From: Lactobacillaceae bacterium
Lineage (GTDB): Bacteria > Pseudomonadota > Alphaproteobacteria > RF32 > CAG-239
Length of the DNA stretch: 64,000 bases
Direction: 5' to 3'
Assembly (NCBI GenBank): GCA_031271345.1
Contig: JAISVX010000001.1
Location: 248,001-312,000 of the forward strand
Of the stretch, positions 14,185 to 27,303 are shown in pieces (within the stretch, counting starts at the first letter, position 1; every line of letters starts with the position of its first letter). Both the position numbers and the translations under genes were made by a program. The notes beneath the pieces are model-generated. The model saw nothing but the letters and a program-made list of their open reading frames with translations, was not told the origin of the DNA and ran no database searches.

Positions 14185-14568
14185 ATGGCAATAAAAGAAC
14201 TATCGCAGCGTCAATTAAAAGTCGGGCAGGAAATTAGAAAAATAATTGCTGGTCTGATTGAGCGCGGCGAAATAAGAAATCTGCAGGAATTTGATGCCTT
14301 GGTTACAATTACGGAGGTTAGAGTTTCTCCAGACTTGAAATACAGCAATGTTTATTTCATTTCTTCAGACGATACGATGAACGAACAAGTTTTAGAAGGT
14401 TTGCAGCTTGCCGCGAATTATTTTCGCAAGCAAATTGCGGCAAAAACCGATTTGCGTTATGTTCCGGAGGTGGTTTTTAAGATCGATGAAAGCTTTGCCG
14501 AAGTTGATAAGATTGAGAAACTGCTTCACGATGACAGGGTTAAAAGAGACTTAAAGAAGTCAGTTTAA
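14185..14568 (+). CDS. rbfA: Ribosome-binding factor A
   Basis: 127 residues. SQRQLKVGQEIRKIIAGLI at the N terminus and the LxxVTITEVRVSPDLKYSNVYF block (about residues 37-60) are typical of RbfA, a KH-fold protein that matures the 5-prime end of 16S rRNA in the 30S subunit. AAGAGGA lies just upstream of the ATG. A very strong bidirectional terminator ends the rimP-to-rbfA transcript, so truB is transcribed separately. Confidence 0.95.
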   Translation: MAIKELSQRQLKVGQEIRKIIAGLIERGEIRNLQEFDALVTITEVRVSPDLKYSNVYFISSDDTMNEQVLEGLQLAANYFRKQIAAKTDLRYVPEVVFKIDESFAEVDKIEKLLHDDRVKRDLKKSV

Positions 14569-14575
14569 AGCTAAT

Positions 14576-14618
14576 TAATAATAAACCCCCGCTTTTTAAA
14601 AGCGGGGGTTTATTATTA
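14576..14618. terminator. Bidirectional terminator, rbfA versus the antisense membrane gene
   Basis: An 18-bp perfect stem (14576-14593 with 14601-14618) with a CCCCCGCT/AGCGGGGG core and AT-rich outer part. On either strand the distal arm gives a T-rich end, so it can serve both rbfA (plus) and the convergent membrane-protein gene (minus), whose stop codon lies in the right arm. Confidence 0.93.
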
Positions 14619-15173
14619 TTCAAGATACAGGCATCCGGCATAATACTTAAGAGTATATATGTGGTTATTGATGTATAGCTGTTCATCTATTCCGACTTTT
14701 TCAACCGTATCAGGGGAGACCTCTTCTCCGTAGATATAAGCCGATATGGAAACAGCGTACTTATTGTCAATATACCAGTAAAAGCTGCCTTCAAACTGTA
14801 TCAGTCCGATTTGATTTCCGGCAGCTCCTATGCCTGATTCCCTAAGAAGATTTATGGCTTCATTAGAGGATTTGATAACTAGCGCGTGCTGGAGCATGTA
14901 AAAATCTACAGCTTCTTTTACAAGCCAGAACCCTTCCCATGCCAGCCACAGTATTTCGACTGTAAGAATTATTGATAAAACGAGCATGAAGTCATAAGAA
15001 AACAATACGTCTCTTTTTACAAAAATAAAAACAGCGGCGGCTATTGCCAAGACCAGAGCGGAAGCTCCCTCGTGAAATACTTTCCCGTTTGTAATATCAT
15101 CCTTAAGGGTTTTCGGATGATAAATTAAGAACGCCATTGATACAATGAGCGCAATTAAGAATAATGTATTCAT
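14616..15173 (-). CDS. Membrane protein of unknown function, paralogue 1 of 2
   Basis: 185 residues, no family recognised. Three hydrophobic segments (about residues 2-17, 38-54, 62-90) are followed by a cytoplasmic or extracytoplasmic C-terminal domain (about 95-185) with an FYWYIDNKYAVSISAYIYG segment. The C-terminal domain is clearly related to that of the next gene upstream (15194-15754): NEAxxLL, L..IxxxGxxYWxID, YxVSxSxYIY and a final beta-rich YIxYxL part match. The pair looks like a tandem duplication in the opposite strand to the ribosome maturation cluster. Topology and function are inference only. Confidence 0.8.
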   Translation of the reverse strand: MNTLFLIALIVSMAFLIYHPKTLKDDITNGKVFHEGASALVLAIAAAVFIFVKRDVLFSYDFMLVLSIILTVEILWLAWEGFWLVKEAVDFYMLQHALVIKSSNEAINLLRESGIGAAGNQIGLIQFEGSFYWYIDNKYAVSISAYIYGEEVSPDTVEKVGIDEQLYINNHIYTLKYYAGCLYLE

Positions 15174-15193
15174 CTGTGTAAGTTTTTAGCGAG

Positions 15194-15754
15194 TTAATTA
15201 ATTTCTTCAAGAGATAAACCTTCTCTGGTTTTTCTCAGCTCATACGTTATGTAGTGGATTTCAACTTCTTCTCCAACTTCAATAACGTCACACTCAATTT
15301 CATCGTCCGTATAAATATAACCTGATAGAGAGACCAGATAGGTGTCATCTATGAGCCAGTAACAGACGCCGTTCCATTCAATTAAACAACAGTTCTTTTC
15401 AGCCAGGGGATAACCGTTTCTCACAATTAAATCGACAGCCTCATTCGATGTTTTTACAACAACCGCATAAACCTCTATAAATCGTACAAGCGATTTAAGA
15501 AGGATGAGTATGCCTATAAGGTAAAGCTGCAGATTTTTAATTATAAGCATGATTGCCAATACGATTACGAACCAGCCTTGGAAAAGGAACTGAAATTTGT
15601 TTATGATGGTTACGGTGGCAACGATAGCCGTTATTAAAGACAAAACGCCGTGCTTTAATAAGTAGGCGGGCTTTTCTTTGTCATCTATTCTGTTTAAATG
15701 ATAGATTAAGTAAGAAATTCCAGCCGTAGTCAAAATTATCATTATCTCGTTCAT
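15194..15754 (-). CDS. Membrane protein of unknown function, paralogue 2 of 2
   Basis: 186 residues. Hydrophobic segments at about 4-19, 35-52, 58-72 and 76-92 precede a C-terminal domain with KTSNEAVDLIV and YWLIDDTYLVSLSGYIY. This domain matches the neighbouring paralogue downstream in order and spacing, but the sequences have diverged along their whole length, so the duplication is not recent. The 20-base gap suggests a two-gene operon in the order paralogue 2 then paralogue 1. No homology to a named family could be recognised by eye. Confidence 0.8.
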   Translation of the reverse strand: MNEIMIILTTAGISYLIYHLNRIDDKEKPAYLLKHGVLSLITAIVATVTIINKFQFLFQGWFVIVLAIMLIIKNLQLYLIGILILLKSLVRFIEVYAVVVKTSNEAVDLIVRNGYPLAEKNCCLIEWNGVCYWLIDDTYLVSLSGYIYTDDEIECDVIEVGEEVEIHYITYELRKTREGLSLEEIN

Positions 15755-15896
15755 ACGCTTGAGAATTATATTGGTGAATAAATAATTATTATTATCTCAT
15801 ATTTTACATTTCTGGACAAAATTGTCAATGAACTAAATTAGATTGCCTGAATCAAAAATTTAAGTTATTTTGCTGTAAGATTTTGAAGGAATAAAA

Positions 15897-16808
15897 ATGT
15901 CTAAACGCAAAAAGTATGATGATGTAAACGGCTGGATTATAATCGATAAACCGAGAGATATGACGTCGAATATGGTTGTAAATATTACGCGCCGTATTTT
16001 TAACGCCAACAAAAACGGACACACCGGGACGCTGGATCCTTTTGCGACAGGGGTTCTTCCAATCGCTTTTGGCGAGGCGACAAAGCTGATACCTTTTGTT
16101 ACCGACGGCGAGAAGGAATATGAATTTATTGTAAAATGGGGAGCGTCAACTAATACTGACGACAGCGAGGGCGATGTTATCGCTTCGACGAACAATATTC
16201 CAACCAAAGCGGAAATCTTAAAAACTATTCCTTGTTTTATTGGCAAAATCAAGCAGATTCCTCCAATGTATTCCGCAATAAAAATCAACGGCGAAAGAGC
16301 ATACAGTCTTGCCCGCCAAGGGCAGGAAGTGGATATGCCCGAACGCGAGATTGAAATATATGATTTGGAGCTTTTAGAAATGCTGCCGGATAACTCGTCA
16401 AAATTCAGAGTGAGGTGTTCAAAAGGAACTTATGTCAGGACTTTAGGCAAGGACATAGCTCTTAAGCTTGGCAGTTTGGGATATTTAAAAGAATTGCGCA
16501 GAACAAAATGCGGCGTTTTTTCTCTTAACGATAAGATTTTGCTGGAAAGTTTAAAAAATATGGTGTACAAAGAGGAACTCGCAAGAGTATTGCTTCCGAT
16601 AGAGACATCTCTGCGCGACATCGCGGTTATTGCCGTTTCGGAAGGCGATGCTGCCAAATTAAAGCAGGGTCAGAGAATCTCTCCCAAAAACTATGACGCC
16701 GGTCATTTAATCGGGAGCGGGGCTGTGGCTGTATTTAATGATAATTTGGTGGCAATCGTCGGGGTGGAGGAAAGCAGAATCTCTCCGCTTCGAGTGTTTA
16801 ATATTTAA
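15897..16808 (+). CDS. truB: tRNA pseudouridine(55) synthase TruB
   Basis: 303 residues. The catalytic motif GHTGTLDPFATGVLP is near residue 41-55, with Asp in TLDP as nucleophile. GWIIIDKPRDMTS at the N terminus and the RCSKGTYVRTLGKDIA motif (about 178-195) confirm the family, and a small PUA-like C-terminal part follows. TruB makes pseudouridine 55 in the T-loop of tRNAs. The ATG follows GAAGGAATAAAA. rpsO follows after 16 bases. Confidence 0.96.
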   Translation: MSKRKKYDDVNGWIIIDKPRDMTSNMVVNITRRIFNANKNGHTGTLDPFATGVLPIAFGEATKLIPFVTDGEKEYEFIVKWGASTNTDDSEGDVIASTNNIPTKAEILKTIPCFIGKIKQIPPMYSAIKINGERAYSLARQGQEVDMPEREIEIYDLELLEMLPDNSSKFRVRCSKGTYVRTLGKDIALKLGSLGYLKELRRTKCGVFSLNDKILLESLKNMVYKEELARVLLPIETSLRDIAVIAVSEGDAAKLKQGQRISPKNYDAGHLIGSGAVAVFNDNLVAIVGVEESRISPLRVFNI

Positions 16809-19428: not shown

Positions 19429-20514
19429 TTAATGCAGAGTTCTTTTTGTTTGGCTTAGTTGCATTTTTACTGCCGGATTGATTTGCTTTTCCACGTTATG
19501 CCTAAACGAACTTCCGCTGTCAGGAGATGGTTTTTCAGCTTTTTTAGGCATTCTGTCTCTGACAGATTGTATTTTTTTCGATCTGTCAACAACGGGTTTG
19601 GCAACAGCTTCCATAATCTCGGAAGCGTTTTCGATTAAGCTTCTATGTTCTTTTGTCTGTTGTTTTTTCATCAGCGGTATGTTTTCAGCTATCATAACAT
19701 CCAACTGATCCAGCATAGTTATCATTGCTTCGTTGTTTAGTTCTCTAGGATTTGACGAGCCATTTGTCGCCATGTTGTATCTTATGACAAATTTCTTTGC
19801 GTCTTCAGCGGTAGCCTGGTTATATTTTTCGCTTTTCAGTTTGTATAATTTTAGGGTATCGCAGACGCCGTCATTAATTTCCTGTTGTGTACTGCACTCA
19901 TCCAAAGGACCTTGCACAAAATCGAACCCGGTTTCTTCGGCTTCGTATCCTGGTCCGCTGATAATTTTGATTCTTTTTGCCGGATCCATACAGTCGTTTT
20001 CAAAACGGTTGGGATCATTCTCATTCCATTCGACTTTAGCCGGGTCGTTGACTTCCCAAAAGATTGCTTTTAGAGGCTGCCCGTTGATTGAATTGTTTAA
20101 ATCATTAAGCCCTTTTTCAGCATGGGAACATATCTCGGCGCCGCTGATTGTATTGTCGTATTCTTTTACTCTGATGATATAGTCTACCAGCGCGCAGTTG
20201 CTGTCGGCTAATACTCTGCTGCAAATAAAACCCATTATCTGAGGGTTTTGCGAATCCAAATCTTTTCCAAATACGCTGAGCAGCTGCTGACCTTCTTCTC
20301 TTCCCGCCTGAAGATTTCCCATCCAGTATTCCAAGCTTTCCTGTTCGCAAGGGATTGGAAACGCGTCGTTATATATTCCGGCGTGGACGTTTGCCAATAG
20401 TTTTGCGGCGGCTTGCTGGTCCGACTTGGAGCCTCCCTTTTCAAAAGCGTCATTGAGGTCTACGCATTCGATTGCTTCCCCAGCCTCTGTTTTAAAAGTT
20501 TTGGATATTGTCAT
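19429..20514 (-). CDS. GNAT-acetyltransferase-like protein with long C-terminal tail
   Basis: 361 residues. Residues about 90-240 show the outline of a GNAT domain: a GFICSRV strand, an SHAEKGLNDLNN helix and a DPAKRIKII...GFDFVQGPL motif like the DPEKR...GFxxxDFxYVQPPL pattern of some acetyltransferases. The acetyl-CoA loop is not obvious, so activity is uncertain. The last 100 residues are charged, lysine- and serine-rich and probably disordered. AAAGG lies upstream of the ATG. It is convergent with pnp and divergent from the gene at 20705. Confidence 0.5.
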   Translation of the reverse strand: MTISKTFKTEAGEAIECVDLNDAFEKGGSKSDQQAAAKLLANVHAGIYNDAFPIPCEQESLEYWMGNLQAGREEGQQLLSVFGKDLDSQNPQIMGFICSRVLADSNCALVDYIIRVKEYDNTISGAEICSHAEKGLNDLNNSINGQPLKAIFWEVNDPAKVEWNENDPNRFENDCMDPAKRIKIISGPGYEAEETGFDFVQGPLDECSTQQEINDGVCDTLKLYKLKSEKYNQATAEDAKKFVIRYNMATNGSSNPRELNNEAMITMLDQLDVMIAENIPLMKKQQTKEHRSLIENASEIMEAVAKPVVDRSKKIQSVRDRMPKKAEKPSPDSGSSFRHNVEKQINPAVKMQLSQTKRTLH

Positions 20515-20635: not shown

Positions 20636-20664
20636 TTGACAAACCATATTTTTTTGTCTAGTAT
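20636..20664 (+). promoter_or_regulatory. Sigma-70-type promoter for the small membrane protein
   Basis: TTGACA at 20636-20641, a 17-base spacer and TAGTAT at 20659-20664, about 40 bases before the ATG at 20705. The -35 is perfect and the -10 matches four of six. This also supports the start at 20705 over earlier in-frame codons. Confidence 0.65.
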
Positions 20665-20704
20665 TAAAATAGCTTTTTTATTAGTAACTAATACATATAA
20701 AACT

Positions 20705-21043
20705 ATGGCAACTATTTTTTTTATTGTCCGCGTAATCTGCATAATCGCTGTCATTTATGGCTTAATATGCTTGGTTTCGTGGCATTACGAGAAGAAACTG
20801 AGAGTGGTTCGTCTCGTTGAAAAGTATGAAACTCCCGAACGTTGGTACTGTGTTTGGATTGAATACGGCGTCGAGTGCTGGGGTGAAATTTGTGTTCCCA
20901 AGGATGCTATGGTTTCCGCGGGAGATTACGTTCTTGCCCACAAAGGCAGGTTTGGTAAGGAGAGATGGGAAATGACGGTTGTCGACGGCAATGTGGCGCG
21001 TCATTATAAAAACGACAAGTATCCCAATATCAAGCTTATATAA
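20705..21043 (+). CDS. Small membrane-anchored protein of unknown function
   Basis: 112 residues from the ATG at 20705. One N-terminal membrane helix (about residues 3-24) is followed by a soluble, aromatic-rich beta domain with RWYCVWIEYGVECWGEI and three cysteines (two in that segment). No family is recognised. The ATG lies about 40 bases after a good promoter and before a strong terminator, so the gene is a single transcription unit. No clear Shine-Dalgarno is seen, which lowers certainty on the exact start. Longer in-frame starts would overlap the promoter. Confidence 0.6.
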   Translation: MATIFFIVRVICIIAVIYGLICLVSWHYEKKLRVVRLVEKYETPERWYCVWIEYGVECWGEICVPKDAMVSAGDYVLAHKGRFGKERWEMTVVDGNVARHYKNDKYPNIKLI

Positions 21044-23454: not shown

Positions 23455-26400
23455 CTACCAGGCATAGTTAAGACCAACATTAAGCGATAAAGCGTCATAA
23501 TTTGAGCCGAAGGTATAATTTGTCATTCCAAATATTGATAACTGTTTATCAACGGCATATCTTCCTCCAAGTTCAATACGGCTTAAAGTTCCAGCCTTAT
23601 AACTTTCCACTTTTCCAAGGCTTGTTATGCTTACGCTGTTTCCATTAACATAACTGCGGATAATGCTTGGCTTAATATAAACCTTTGCCAGACCGTTTAT
23701 CTGAGCCAAAGTTTTTTCAAGTTTTAATCCAAGTTCTATTTCTGTGTGGCTTAATGTTTCAAATTTTGCGGTTTTGCCAAAATTGTCGGTTATTTCATCA
23801 AAATCAGTTTTGTTATAAGAAATTCCCGCGCTAGGTTCTAATGTATATTTATTTTTCAATGCAAACAAGTATCCAAAGTCAGCCTCTCCGCCAATCTGTC
23901 TGCCATCAGTATCATTTTTGACGCCGTCTTTGGTGCTTAGGTCTGTCTGAAGCAGTCCGCCGTAAACAGCTGCGAATGCCCAGAAGTTGTTTTTATCATA
24001 GCGATAATACAGCCCCGTGATGTAGCTGTTAACATCTATTTCTCCCTTAATCGGCGAGTTGTAGTGTTCTCCTTTGCCGTTTAGGTCAAAACTTCCCATT
24101 CTATATGAAGCAAATGCGCCAAGCTTATGGTTTGCATTATATTGGACGTCAAATCCGCCTTCAAGACCGTAGATGTCCGCTTCCATATTCTGCGGTTTTT
24201 TCAAAGTTGCCGTGTGGTAAACAGGACTGACCCATACATTATAAAGAGGGTTTCCGTCGTAGTTAATGTCATAAATTCCGCAGCCCGGGCAGTATGCTTT
24301 GTTATCGGCTATTTTGTTGAAAATATTGCGTGTCATGCTTCTGGTCTGCTCAACGGCGGCTGCATGAAGGTCTATATATCCGACAATCTCAGATGCCACG
24401 TCAATTTTTCCGCCGCCTTTTTCATAATCTGGATTATTGCTGCCGTTCATTGCAAACGACCATGTCTTGCTGTCATCTCCCAAGTCCGTATAGACAATGT
24501 CGTATAAATACGGACTGCCGAACACGCGGAAAATTGAAAACGAAGAAGCGGAACCCGCCGTATCATTAAACGATTCCGCAAACAAAATTTTTCCGCGTTT
24601 ACGGATGTCTTCATTGCTTGTCGCATGGACGACCAATCTTGTCGAACCAGTAACATCACCGCTAACGCTCAATACGTCAGATTTCATCAAGTCGGGATTG
24701 ACGTCGATGTTCACATAACTGTCTCCGCTGATTGTGTATGATTTGAGGTTTATTGTTTCCACATAGCCGTTATTGAGGTCAAGCGTCGAGTCTGTGATAG
24801 CGAGGTCGGGAGCTGTGCCGCTGATGCCTCCTTGATTATCCAGGCTGTAGGTGAACCTTGAGCTTGTAAAGCCTCCAAGACCGCTTACCGCTCTTCCAAG
24901 CTTGAGCGTTGAGTTTGCGATGTTTATGCTGCCGGCATTAACGAGAGAGTTGTTAAGAGATACCACGCCGCTGCCGTCGCCGGTAATAGAAACGCTGTAC
25001 CCGGCGTCGCCGTCTATTGAATCGTCAAAAAGAATTGTACCGCCGTTGATAGTGTTAAGACTCAGAGTTGTCGGAAAATCAATGCTGCCTTCCGTGCAGT
25101 TGTTCAAATCGCAAATCGTCTGAGAGCCTTTAAGGTGAGCCATATAAATTGCGTTATGCTCGTCATTGGCTTTATTGCCGCTAAACTTGGAAAAATAATT
25201 ATCTGCAGTGATATTAATGCTGCCCTCATTATAAATTGCTCCGCCCTTTGCTTCGCCCGCCGCTTTTACGGAATTACCGATAAAGCCGACATTGGTTAAA
25301 ACAAGCGTCGGCACGACGAAATCTTCAATCTGAGGTTCTTCTTTTGTATATAAATCAGAATTTTCAATGTCATTTAATGTATTGTCATATTCATCTTGGC
25401 TCCAAAGGGTACTAGGATAAACAGTTTTATTTAAAGAAAATCCATTAAAAATGGCGCCGCCATAGGCGTCTCCATGCTGTGAAACAGCCTTGTTTCCGCT
25501 GAATATGTTGCCGTTTAAGTTCATTGTTGTTACTGTAGAACTGTTTCCGCTGACATACCAGTAAGTATCTGAAAATACGCTCGGGTCATCATATAAAGTG
25601 AAGAAATAACCGATTAGATTTTTCTGCTCTGCTCTATAGATAGCTCCGCCGGAAGCGGTGCTGTCTACGGAAGAGGCATAATTATCTGTAAAATTACCCG
25701 TTATATTGCCGATATTGCCATTGCCATAAAGAGCTTCGTAAATAGCTCCGCCGCTTGCTCCATTTGCTGTTGAGGATACGTAGTTGCCGATAAAATTTCC
25801 CGCAATGCTGTCTATAGAACCTGTGTTATAAATTGCTCCCCCATAGGCTTGAGTATTAGCCCCTGAAGCCAGAGCATGGTTGCCGACAAAATCTCCAGTA
25901 ATAACGGCAATTTTGGTACGGTTGTGAATTGCCCCTCCAGCAGCATAACCAGAATAGGAGGCATTGGTTACTTCCACATAATTTTGAATGAAATTTCCAG
26001 TTATATTTATAGTCTTGTTATACGCTTCGTTAAAGATTGCCCCCCCATAGGCATCGGATGTTAAAGAGACATGATTTTTAATAAAATTGCCAGTTACATT
26101 TAGGTCTCCCAGATTACTAATTGCGCCGCCGTAGGACGATGAATAATTTTCAATAAAATGTCCGGCAATATTTGCGCTGCCAGTTGAATAGTTGTAAAAA
26201 GCGCCTCCCTGATTGCTGTAATTTTTGACAAAGCTTCCAGTTACATTTAGGTCTCCCAGATTACTAATTGCGCCGCCGTAATTGTAGGAATGATTATCAA
26301 AAAAATCTCCCGTGATAGAGCTTATTGTGCCTTCATTATGTATAGCGCCGCCGTAACTATAATAACCGCCGAAAATGCCGTTAGTTGTCGAAGAAACATA

Positions 26401-27303
26401 GTTGCCGAAGAAGCTGCCGGTTATGTCGCTGATAATGCCAGCATTATAAATGGCTCCGCCATAAGAAAAACTGTTCAGCCAATATCCCCCGTTTCCATAA
26501 AGCTCCGAATAAACGTGGTTTCCGATAAAGCTGCCGGTGATACTTGTAATGCTGCCTGCGCTGCTGTTTGAGACCGCGCCGCCATAAGCGTAAATTTTGG
26601 TATCGCTGGATGTGTCCTTATGATATGCGTGGGTATAATTATTAATGAAATTTCCGGCAATATCGCCAATACTTCCCTCATTATAAACCGCGCCTCCGTA
26701 TGCATTGTTTTTCATGCCGTAATACCCGGTATTGGTATAGAGATATGAATTGACTGTGTTGCCGATAAAATCTCCCGTAATACCGGAAATGCTGCCGCCG
26801 CTGATATTTGAGAGGGCGCCGCCATAAGCATAAATCTGAGAAGAGTTTAAGCTGTTTTGATAGTGTGCGCTGGCAAGGTTGTTTGTAAAATCTCCAGTAA
26901 TCGTTCCCATAGAGTTGGTGTTATATATCGCGCCGCCTGAAATAGACGATGTTCCGTCTGCTGTCAGGCTATTAAAATATCCTTCCAGATTTTGACCGGC
27001 TGAAGGGCTTTGCCTGTATAGATAATCGCTTCCGTTTCTGGCAGGATTAACGCCTGTCGTAATTTTATAATAAACGGGAGTAGAGGTATTGTCATCACTG
27101 TTTACCATGTAATAGATAAAGTCATGATCCGCAATGGTTCCATGCGTGAATTCCAAAGTATATCCGCTGTTGATATTTGTATCGCCATCGGTATAAGCTT
27201 CATCTAACGTTGGGGTATAATCGGAAAAATTAAAATCGTCCGCCGCTTGTGCCGGAGCGCTAAAAGCCAAGAAGGGTATAATAAGAGTTAAAGGCTTATT
27301 CAT
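23455..27303 (-). CDS. Autotransporter adhesin-like outer-membrane protein
   Basis: 1282 residues. A signal peptide (1-20, cleaved after AQA) is followed by a passenger (about 21-1000) made of many degenerate units of the form GGAIYNxGSIxxITGxFxGNYV, as expected for a right-handed beta-helix. The last part (about 1010-1282) is an autotransporter beta-barrel with the linking helix, GLEGGFDVQYN, and a C-terminal aromatic residue after beta strands ending LNVGLNYAW. Such proteins export their passenger to the surface by the type V pathway; adhesion is a guess from family. A 44-base perfect direct repeat lies inside the passenger. AAGGAACTC precedes the ATG. Confidence 0.88.
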   Translation of the reverse strand: MNKPLTLIIPFLAFSAPAQAADDFNFSDYTPTLDEAYTDGDTNINSGYTLEFTHGTIADHDFIYYMVNSDDNTSTPVYYKITTGVNPARNGSDYLYRQSPSAGQNLEGYFNSLTADGTSSISGGAIYNTNSMGTITGDFTNNLASAHYQNSLNSSQIYAYGGALSNISGGSISGITGDFIGNTVNSYLYTNTGYYGMKNNAYGGAVYNEGSIGDIAGNFINNYTHAYHKDTSSDTKIYAYGGAVSNSSAGSITSITGSFIGNHVYSELYGNGGYWLNSFSYGGAIYNAGIISDITGSFFGNYVSSTTNGIFGGYYSYGGAIHNEGTISSITGDFFDNHSYNYGGAISNLGDLNVTGSFVKNYSNQGGAFYNYSTGSANIAGHFIENYSSSYGGAISNLGDLNVTGNFIKNHVSLTSDAYGGAIFNEAYNKTINITGNFIQNYVEVTNASYSGYAAGGAIHNRTKIAVITGDFVGNHALASGANTQAYGGAIYNTGSIDSIAGNFIGNYVSSTANGASGGAIYEALYGNGNIGNITGNFTDNYASSVDSTASGGAIYRAEQKNLIGYFFTLYDDPSVFSDTYWYVSGNSSTVTTMNLNGNIFSGNKAVSQHGDAYGGAIFNGFSLNKTVYPSTLWSQDEYDNTLNDIENSDLYTKEEPQIEDFVVPTLVLTNVGFIGNSVKAAGEAKGGAIYNEGSINITADNYFSKFSGNKANDEHNAIYMAHLKGSQTICDLNNCTEGSIDFPTTLSLNTINGGTILFDDSIDGDAGYSVSITGDGSGVVSLNNSLVNAGSINIANSTLKLGRAVSGLGGFTSSRFTYSLDNQGGISGTAPDLAITDSTLDLNNGYVETINLKSYTISGDSYVNIDVNPDLMKSDVLSVSGDVTGSTRLVVHATSNEDIRKRGKILFAESFNDTAGSASSFSIFRVFGSPYLYDIVYTDLGDDSKTWSFAMNGSNNPDYEKGGGKIDVASEIVGYIDLHAAAVEQTRSMTRNIFNKIADNKAYCPGCGIYDINYDGNPLYNVWVSPVYHTATLKKPQNMEADIYGLEGGFDVQYNANHKLGAFASYRMGSFDLNGKGEHYNSPIKGEIDVNSYITGLYYRYDKNNFWAFAAVYGGLLQTDLSTKDGVKNDTDGRQIGGEADFGYLFALKNKYTLEPSAGISYNKTDFDEITDNFGKTAKFETLSHTEIELGLKLEKTLAQINGLAKVYIKPSIIRSYVNGNSVSITSLGKVESYKAGTLSRIELGGRYAVDKQLSIFGMTNYTFGSNYDALSLNVGLNYAW
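26090..26133 (-). repeat. Direct repeat copy A in the autotransporter gene
   Basis: 44 bases identical to 26237-26280. The copies start 147 bases apart, exactly 49 codons, so recombination between them would remove or add one in-frame block of the passenger. They encode part of the GGAISNLGDLNVTG unit. Confidence 0.95.
26237..26280 (-). repeat. Direct repeat copy B in the autotransporter gene
   Basis: Second copy of the 44-base repeat at 26090-26133. Flanking bases differ on both sides, so the identity ends sharply. Confidence 0.95.

Follow-up and report, generated by a model that had tools for sequence, protein, structure and literature searches.

A tandem pair of genus-restricted orphan membrane protein genes at the variable rbfA-truB junction of an alphaproteobacterial family

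Genes and putative signals between rbfA and truB

The window, that is the whole stretch of 64,000 nucleotides that was analyzed, probably comes from an uncultivated alphaproteobacterium of the gut, with a genome of 1.5 Mb, and contains a cluster with the gene order rimP, nusA, ylxR-like, infB, rbfA, U1, U2, truB, rpsO and pnp. The cluster genes were named after recognized standard families, and the names of rbfA and truB were additionally backed by searches of relatives. U1 and U2 are two complete open reading frames (ORFs), separated by 20 bp, that lie antisense between rbfA and truB. The ORF scan matched exactly the coordinates and placement given in an initial annotation and showed no ORF of at least 60 aa on the plus strand between rbfA and truB. 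The locus contains the following features:

14185..14568, plus strand: rbfA, left edge of the variable spot
14576..14618, no strand assigned: inverted repeat, perfect over 21 bp with a 1-nt loop, A/T-rich at both ends, MFE -29.2 kcal/mol
14616..15173, minus strand: U1, predicted membrane protein of 185 aa with a C-terminal alpha+beta domain at ∼96-185
15194..15754, minus strand: U2, paralogue of U1 with 186 aa, first gene of a presumed two-gene transcript
15759..15786, plus strand: promoter-like site ahead of truB, TTGAGA-16-AATAAT, 10/12, consensus match only
15801..15828, minus strand: promoter-like site for U2-U1, TTGACA-16-TAAAAT, 11/12, consensus match only
15897..16808, plus strand: truB, right edge of the variable spot

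The relationship between U1 and U2 was investigated by pairwise alignment, under which the similarity claimed in the initial annotation proved strong. The BLASTP alignment ran from Met1 to the C-terminus with 60/186 identities (∼32-33%), 55% positives, 79 bits and an E-value of 2e-23, and the global alignment score was 16.8 SD above composition-preserving shuffles. When the two halves were shuffled separately, z was 9.8 for residues 1-95, the membrane half, and 12.4 from residue 96 to the end. Judged by these alignments, U1 and U2 are tandem paralogues along their whole length, membrane part included, being adjacent genes with significant homology over residues 1-185. The initial annotation had described them as unknown membrane proteins with related C-terminal domains inside the rimP-pnp cluster, representing one domain type kept in a duplicated pair. 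The membrane character, the tandem duplication and the setting were all borne out, and the C-terminal part is indeed the better conserved; the relationship was understated, however, as the membrane part is paralogous as well and the homology extends beyond one common domain. The best-conserved stretch, residues 96-150, had 24/55 identities and included SNEA and LI..G..YW.ID..Y.VS.S.YIY. The segments YWxID and YxVSxSxYIY, which had been picked out before, are present in both proteins.

The differences between U1 and U2 at codon positions 1, 2 and 3 numbered 96, 64 and 127 over ∼182 aligned codons, and 36 of the 60 residues identical in the two proteins use different codons. This pattern shows selection on the protein, and by the same codon evidence both U1 and U2 are protein-coding. 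The GC content of the two genes was 0.39 and 0.37, compared with 0.40 for the window, and thus gave no sign of foreign origin.

The inverted repeat is situated between the converging rbfA and U1 genes, and the stop codon of U1 falls within it; it is probably a bidirectional terminator common to infB-rbfA on the plus strand and U2-U1 on the minus strand. The minus-strand promoter-like site precedes the start codon of U2 by 46 bp and had the best promoter-like score in the region. Shine-Dalgarno sequences were present at rbfA (AGAGGA) and truB (GAAGGA), and no clear one could be read upstream of U1 or U2. Flanking repeats resembling attachment sites were searched for around the pair, with no convincing candidate, and no tRNA or RNA-family anchors were found within the window. 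Elsewhere in the window, ORFs without Pfam match follow just after pnp (19429-20514, minus strand, 361 aa, and 20639-21043), and positions 23455-27303 encode an autotransporter of 1282 aa; its passenger is filled by GGAIYN-type repeats, and an autotransporter beta-domain (E 1.6e-27) forms the C-terminal part.

A homologue in the sister species and the distribution of the family

The other genome of the genus contains a single homologue, a 204-aa ORF located antisense ∼12 bp past the stop codon of rbfA; a terminator-like hairpin lies between rbfA and the ORF. It was found by inspecting the rbfA locus and then by profile; single-sequence searches with U1 and U2 returned no relatives and missed the sister homologue too. 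Comparison with the U family, as we call these proteins, gave an E-value of 2.4e-5 over 155 columns in the profile comparison and 4e-7 with phmmer. Of the two motifs, the sister homologue keeps only YW-I and one Tyr of the second. In this genome truB is inverted and ∼13 kb away, while the U gene is still beside rbfA. A plus-strand ORF of 194 aa without Pfam match (L033:3731-4312) lies just past the sister homologue.

The sister rbfA and truB are each 73% identical to those of the window. The U family evolves far faster than these neighbors, as the identity between U1 and the sister homologue is only ∼26%. The three identities within the family (U1/U2 33%, U1/sister 26% and U2/sister 19%) fit a duplication after the species split. 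The duplication most likely took place in this species after its separation from the sister, although its timing and the age of the genes rest on three sequences from two genomes, and unequal rates could give the same picture as a late duplication.

A profile built from the three sequences detected nothing further convincing in 152 genomes of the family (150 besides the two of the genus) and no convincing match in 385 genomes sampled across the class. Weak matches in four genomes (G096, G100, G179 and G040, E 1e-4 to 8e-3) were confined to brief segments of the membrane part and were set aside as effects of composition. No source for the U genes was found in the public collections searched (phages, plasmids, viral contigs and other genomes), and a pattern-based scan of viral contigs gave no match. 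As the initial annotation had supposed, U1 and U2 belong to no family of Pfam, NCBIfam, PHROGs or PADLOC: the best E-values against these collections were at least 0.1, to unrelated models and far under the cut-offs. PDB sequences gave no match at E≤10. As far as these searches reach, U is a genus-restricted, fast-evolving resident gene. The named relatives of truB trace to metagenome assemblies of alphaproteobacteria from deer rumen and horse faeces. One contig titled Lactobacillus sp. (L138) carries a truB of alphaproteobacterial type, 65% identical to that of the window, and likely belongs to a mislabelled or contaminated bin.

The rbfA-truB junction as an insertion spot

Comparison of the rbfA-truB content in relatives, which the initial annotation had proposed, revealed a family-wide variable spot in which the U pair is one genus-specific occupant. 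The gap exceeded 400 bp in 34 of 51 linked loci, with a median of 768 and a maximum of 4721; these are loci that carry both genes on the same strand (opposite-strand pairs were excluded), nearly all from the family, with a few named or outside ones included. At the neighboring junctions of the same loci, gaps of this size were found in 2/37 cases for infB-rbfA and in none for truB-rpsO (0/29), ylxR-infB (0/12) and rpsO-pnp (0/16). Outside the family, rbfA and truB are nearly adjacent, ∼5-57 bp apart, in all four relatives in which both were found (L028-L031). These counts mark the rbfA-truB junction of this alphaproteobacterial family as an insertion spot. In the open-access texts searched, no literature on an orphan spot between rbfA and truB was found.

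Most of the 49 insert ORFs that were scanned had no Pfam match. The exceptions were Peptidase_C26/GATase (3), a phosphoribosyltransferase, a histidine phosphatase, an M15/VanY peptidase and an inverted rbfA, so ordinary enzymes have entered the spot as well. The Peptidase_C26/GATase gene (PuuD-like, of the gamma-glutamyl-GABA hydrolase type) is antisense in the gap at L039, L097, L098, L099, L100, L101, L103 and L105, and occurs twice in L100 and L105. Tandem paralogues are also present at other occupied loci (L038, L045, L113 and L100/L105). Among the 152 genomes, insert family A4 had ten matches in nine genomes, all adjoining rbfA or upstream of truB, and family A5 was largely confined to the locus, apart from two weak matches in other places. 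This confinement suggests that genes of the spot are residents diverging in place rather than mobile cargo. The inserts of other genera are mostly soluble-looking and encoded on the plus strand, whereas this genus has a membrane family. That the plus-strand inserts form a single superfamily is suggested but not proven by their best comparison (E 1.7e-5 of 1081 profile comparisons). Common ancestry of U with the inserts of other genera was considered and rejected, the best E-value being 0.0076 over 16 columns, uncorrected for ∼46 tests.

In one related genus, rbfA itself appears inverted and divergent from truB in six genomes (L125, L126, L127, L132, L133 and L136), and an apparent antisense insert at these loci turned out to be this inverted rbfA. 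The call is based on one member of the scanned set that matches RBFA and on the clustering of the six loci. The inversion is another sign that the junction is prone to rearrangement.

Predicted architecture and possible role of the U proteins

Hydropathy analysis of U1 showed three hydrophobic segments, at about residues 3-18, 37-53 and 61-85. Three membrane segments were also predicted for the sister homologue; in U2 the later two were clear and the first fell below the threshold used. The remaining C-terminal domain of U1 and U2 comprises ∼90 residues. The first loop of the three proteins holds 3, 4 and 4 Lys/Arg residues, and the second loop 1, 1 and 1. This excess of positive charge in the first loop points weakly to an N-out, C-in topology, with the C-terminal domain probably in the cytoplasm. 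The AlphaFold model of U2 had a mean pLDDT of 66, with mostly confident long helices at residues 2-112 and a beta-rich C-terminal domain of low confidence (pLDDT <50 for most of the chain past residue 107), and the model of U1 was poor throughout (mean pLDDT 50). A Foldseek comparison with PDB folds, using the unreliable model of the C-terminal domain as query, gave a best E-value of 1.4. With models this poor, the fold and the binding role of the C-terminal domain are unsupported guesses.

On balance, we favor the explanation that U2 and U1 are a genus-restricted, fast-evolving inner-membrane family, resident 3' of rbfA, tandem-duplicated in this species and carrying a membrane-anchored binding domain. 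The family would have kept its antisense position directly 3' of rbfA from the genus ancestor onward, and a tandem duplication in this species would have produced the pair. U2 and U1 probably form one transcript that starts at a promoter between U2 and truB and would end at the terminator shared with rbfA. Each protein would probably span the membrane with three helices and expose its C-terminal domain to the cytoplasm, most likely acting there as a membrane-anchored binding domain; the two paralogues may have diverged in binding target or may be paired as a hetero-oligomer. Other genera of the family keep different, likewise locus-bound, lineage-specific genes in the same spot.

The main functional rival to a binding domain is that U1 and U2 are orphan immunity or antagonist proteins that guard against toxins of neighboring bacteria or phages and diversify in this conflict as a tandem pair. 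Fast evolution, the small multi-helix membrane build, the lineage-variable spot and tandem paralogy, also seen at other occupied loci such as L038, L045 and L113, would all fit. On the other hand, PADLOC, Pfam and PHROGs offered no match, no mobile-element genes were seen at the locus and no toxin-like gene occurred among the flanking genes examined, the immediate neighbors being rbfA and truB instead of a cognate toxin gene; moreover, generic rapid drift gives the same pattern, and we regard this role as unlikely. A broader proposal, which we hold to be slightly less probable still, is that the junction serves as a slot reserved for locus-bound genes that diversify rapidly, are duplicated again and again and have a common conflict or sensing role, guarded by the nearby essential translation genes.

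Horizontal acquisition, with the junction merely permissive and the U pair its cargo, appears about as improbable as such a slot. The strong enrichment of insertions compared with neighboring junctions, the differing contents between genera and the ordinary enzymes among the inserts (Peptidase_C26, phosphoribosyltransferase) are what it would predict, but a homologue occupies the equivalent place in the sister species, the GC content of U1 and U2 matches the genome, the phages, plasmids, viral contigs and other genomes searched held no source, and the best-sampled insert family of other genera is confined to this spot. Least plausible is that U1 and U2 are functionless ORFs, either recently born (de novo) or in decay. 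Their orphan status, fast divergence and missing Shine-Dalgarno sequences could be read in that way; start and length are nevertheless conserved, substitutions at codon position 2 are few, the YW/ID motifs are retained and the gene is kept in a second species.

The U pair is ordinary in kind, as genus-restricted orphan membrane proteins are, and its setting is more interesting. Genes private to one genus are frequent and for the most part unexplained, and here they recur at one point of a gene cluster that ranks among the most conserved in bacteria, where relatives with an empty site could allow orphan-gene origin, turnover and duplication to be traced in one place. The pair offers a clear case of a membrane family, so far undescribed, that outpaces its neighbors in evolution. 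Among known families, DUF6232 (PF19744) weakly resembles the membrane part of U2; membership was rejected, as U2 reached 11.7 bits (E 0.37) against a cut-off of 27.4 bits and U1 had no match. The small multi-helix immunity proteins of bacteria, as a general type, may be likened to U in size, membrane helices and tandem fast-evolving copies; U differs in that no homology and no cognate toxin were found, and the likeness is one of analogy only. The families of the FESNov catalogue (PMC10849945), which are lineage-specific families of uncultivated taxa, are likened to U by kind, U being known, unlike them, from two genomes only. As in that catalogue, U has no match to a curated family, comes from uncultivated gut-type bacteria and is recognizable through comparative genomics alone.
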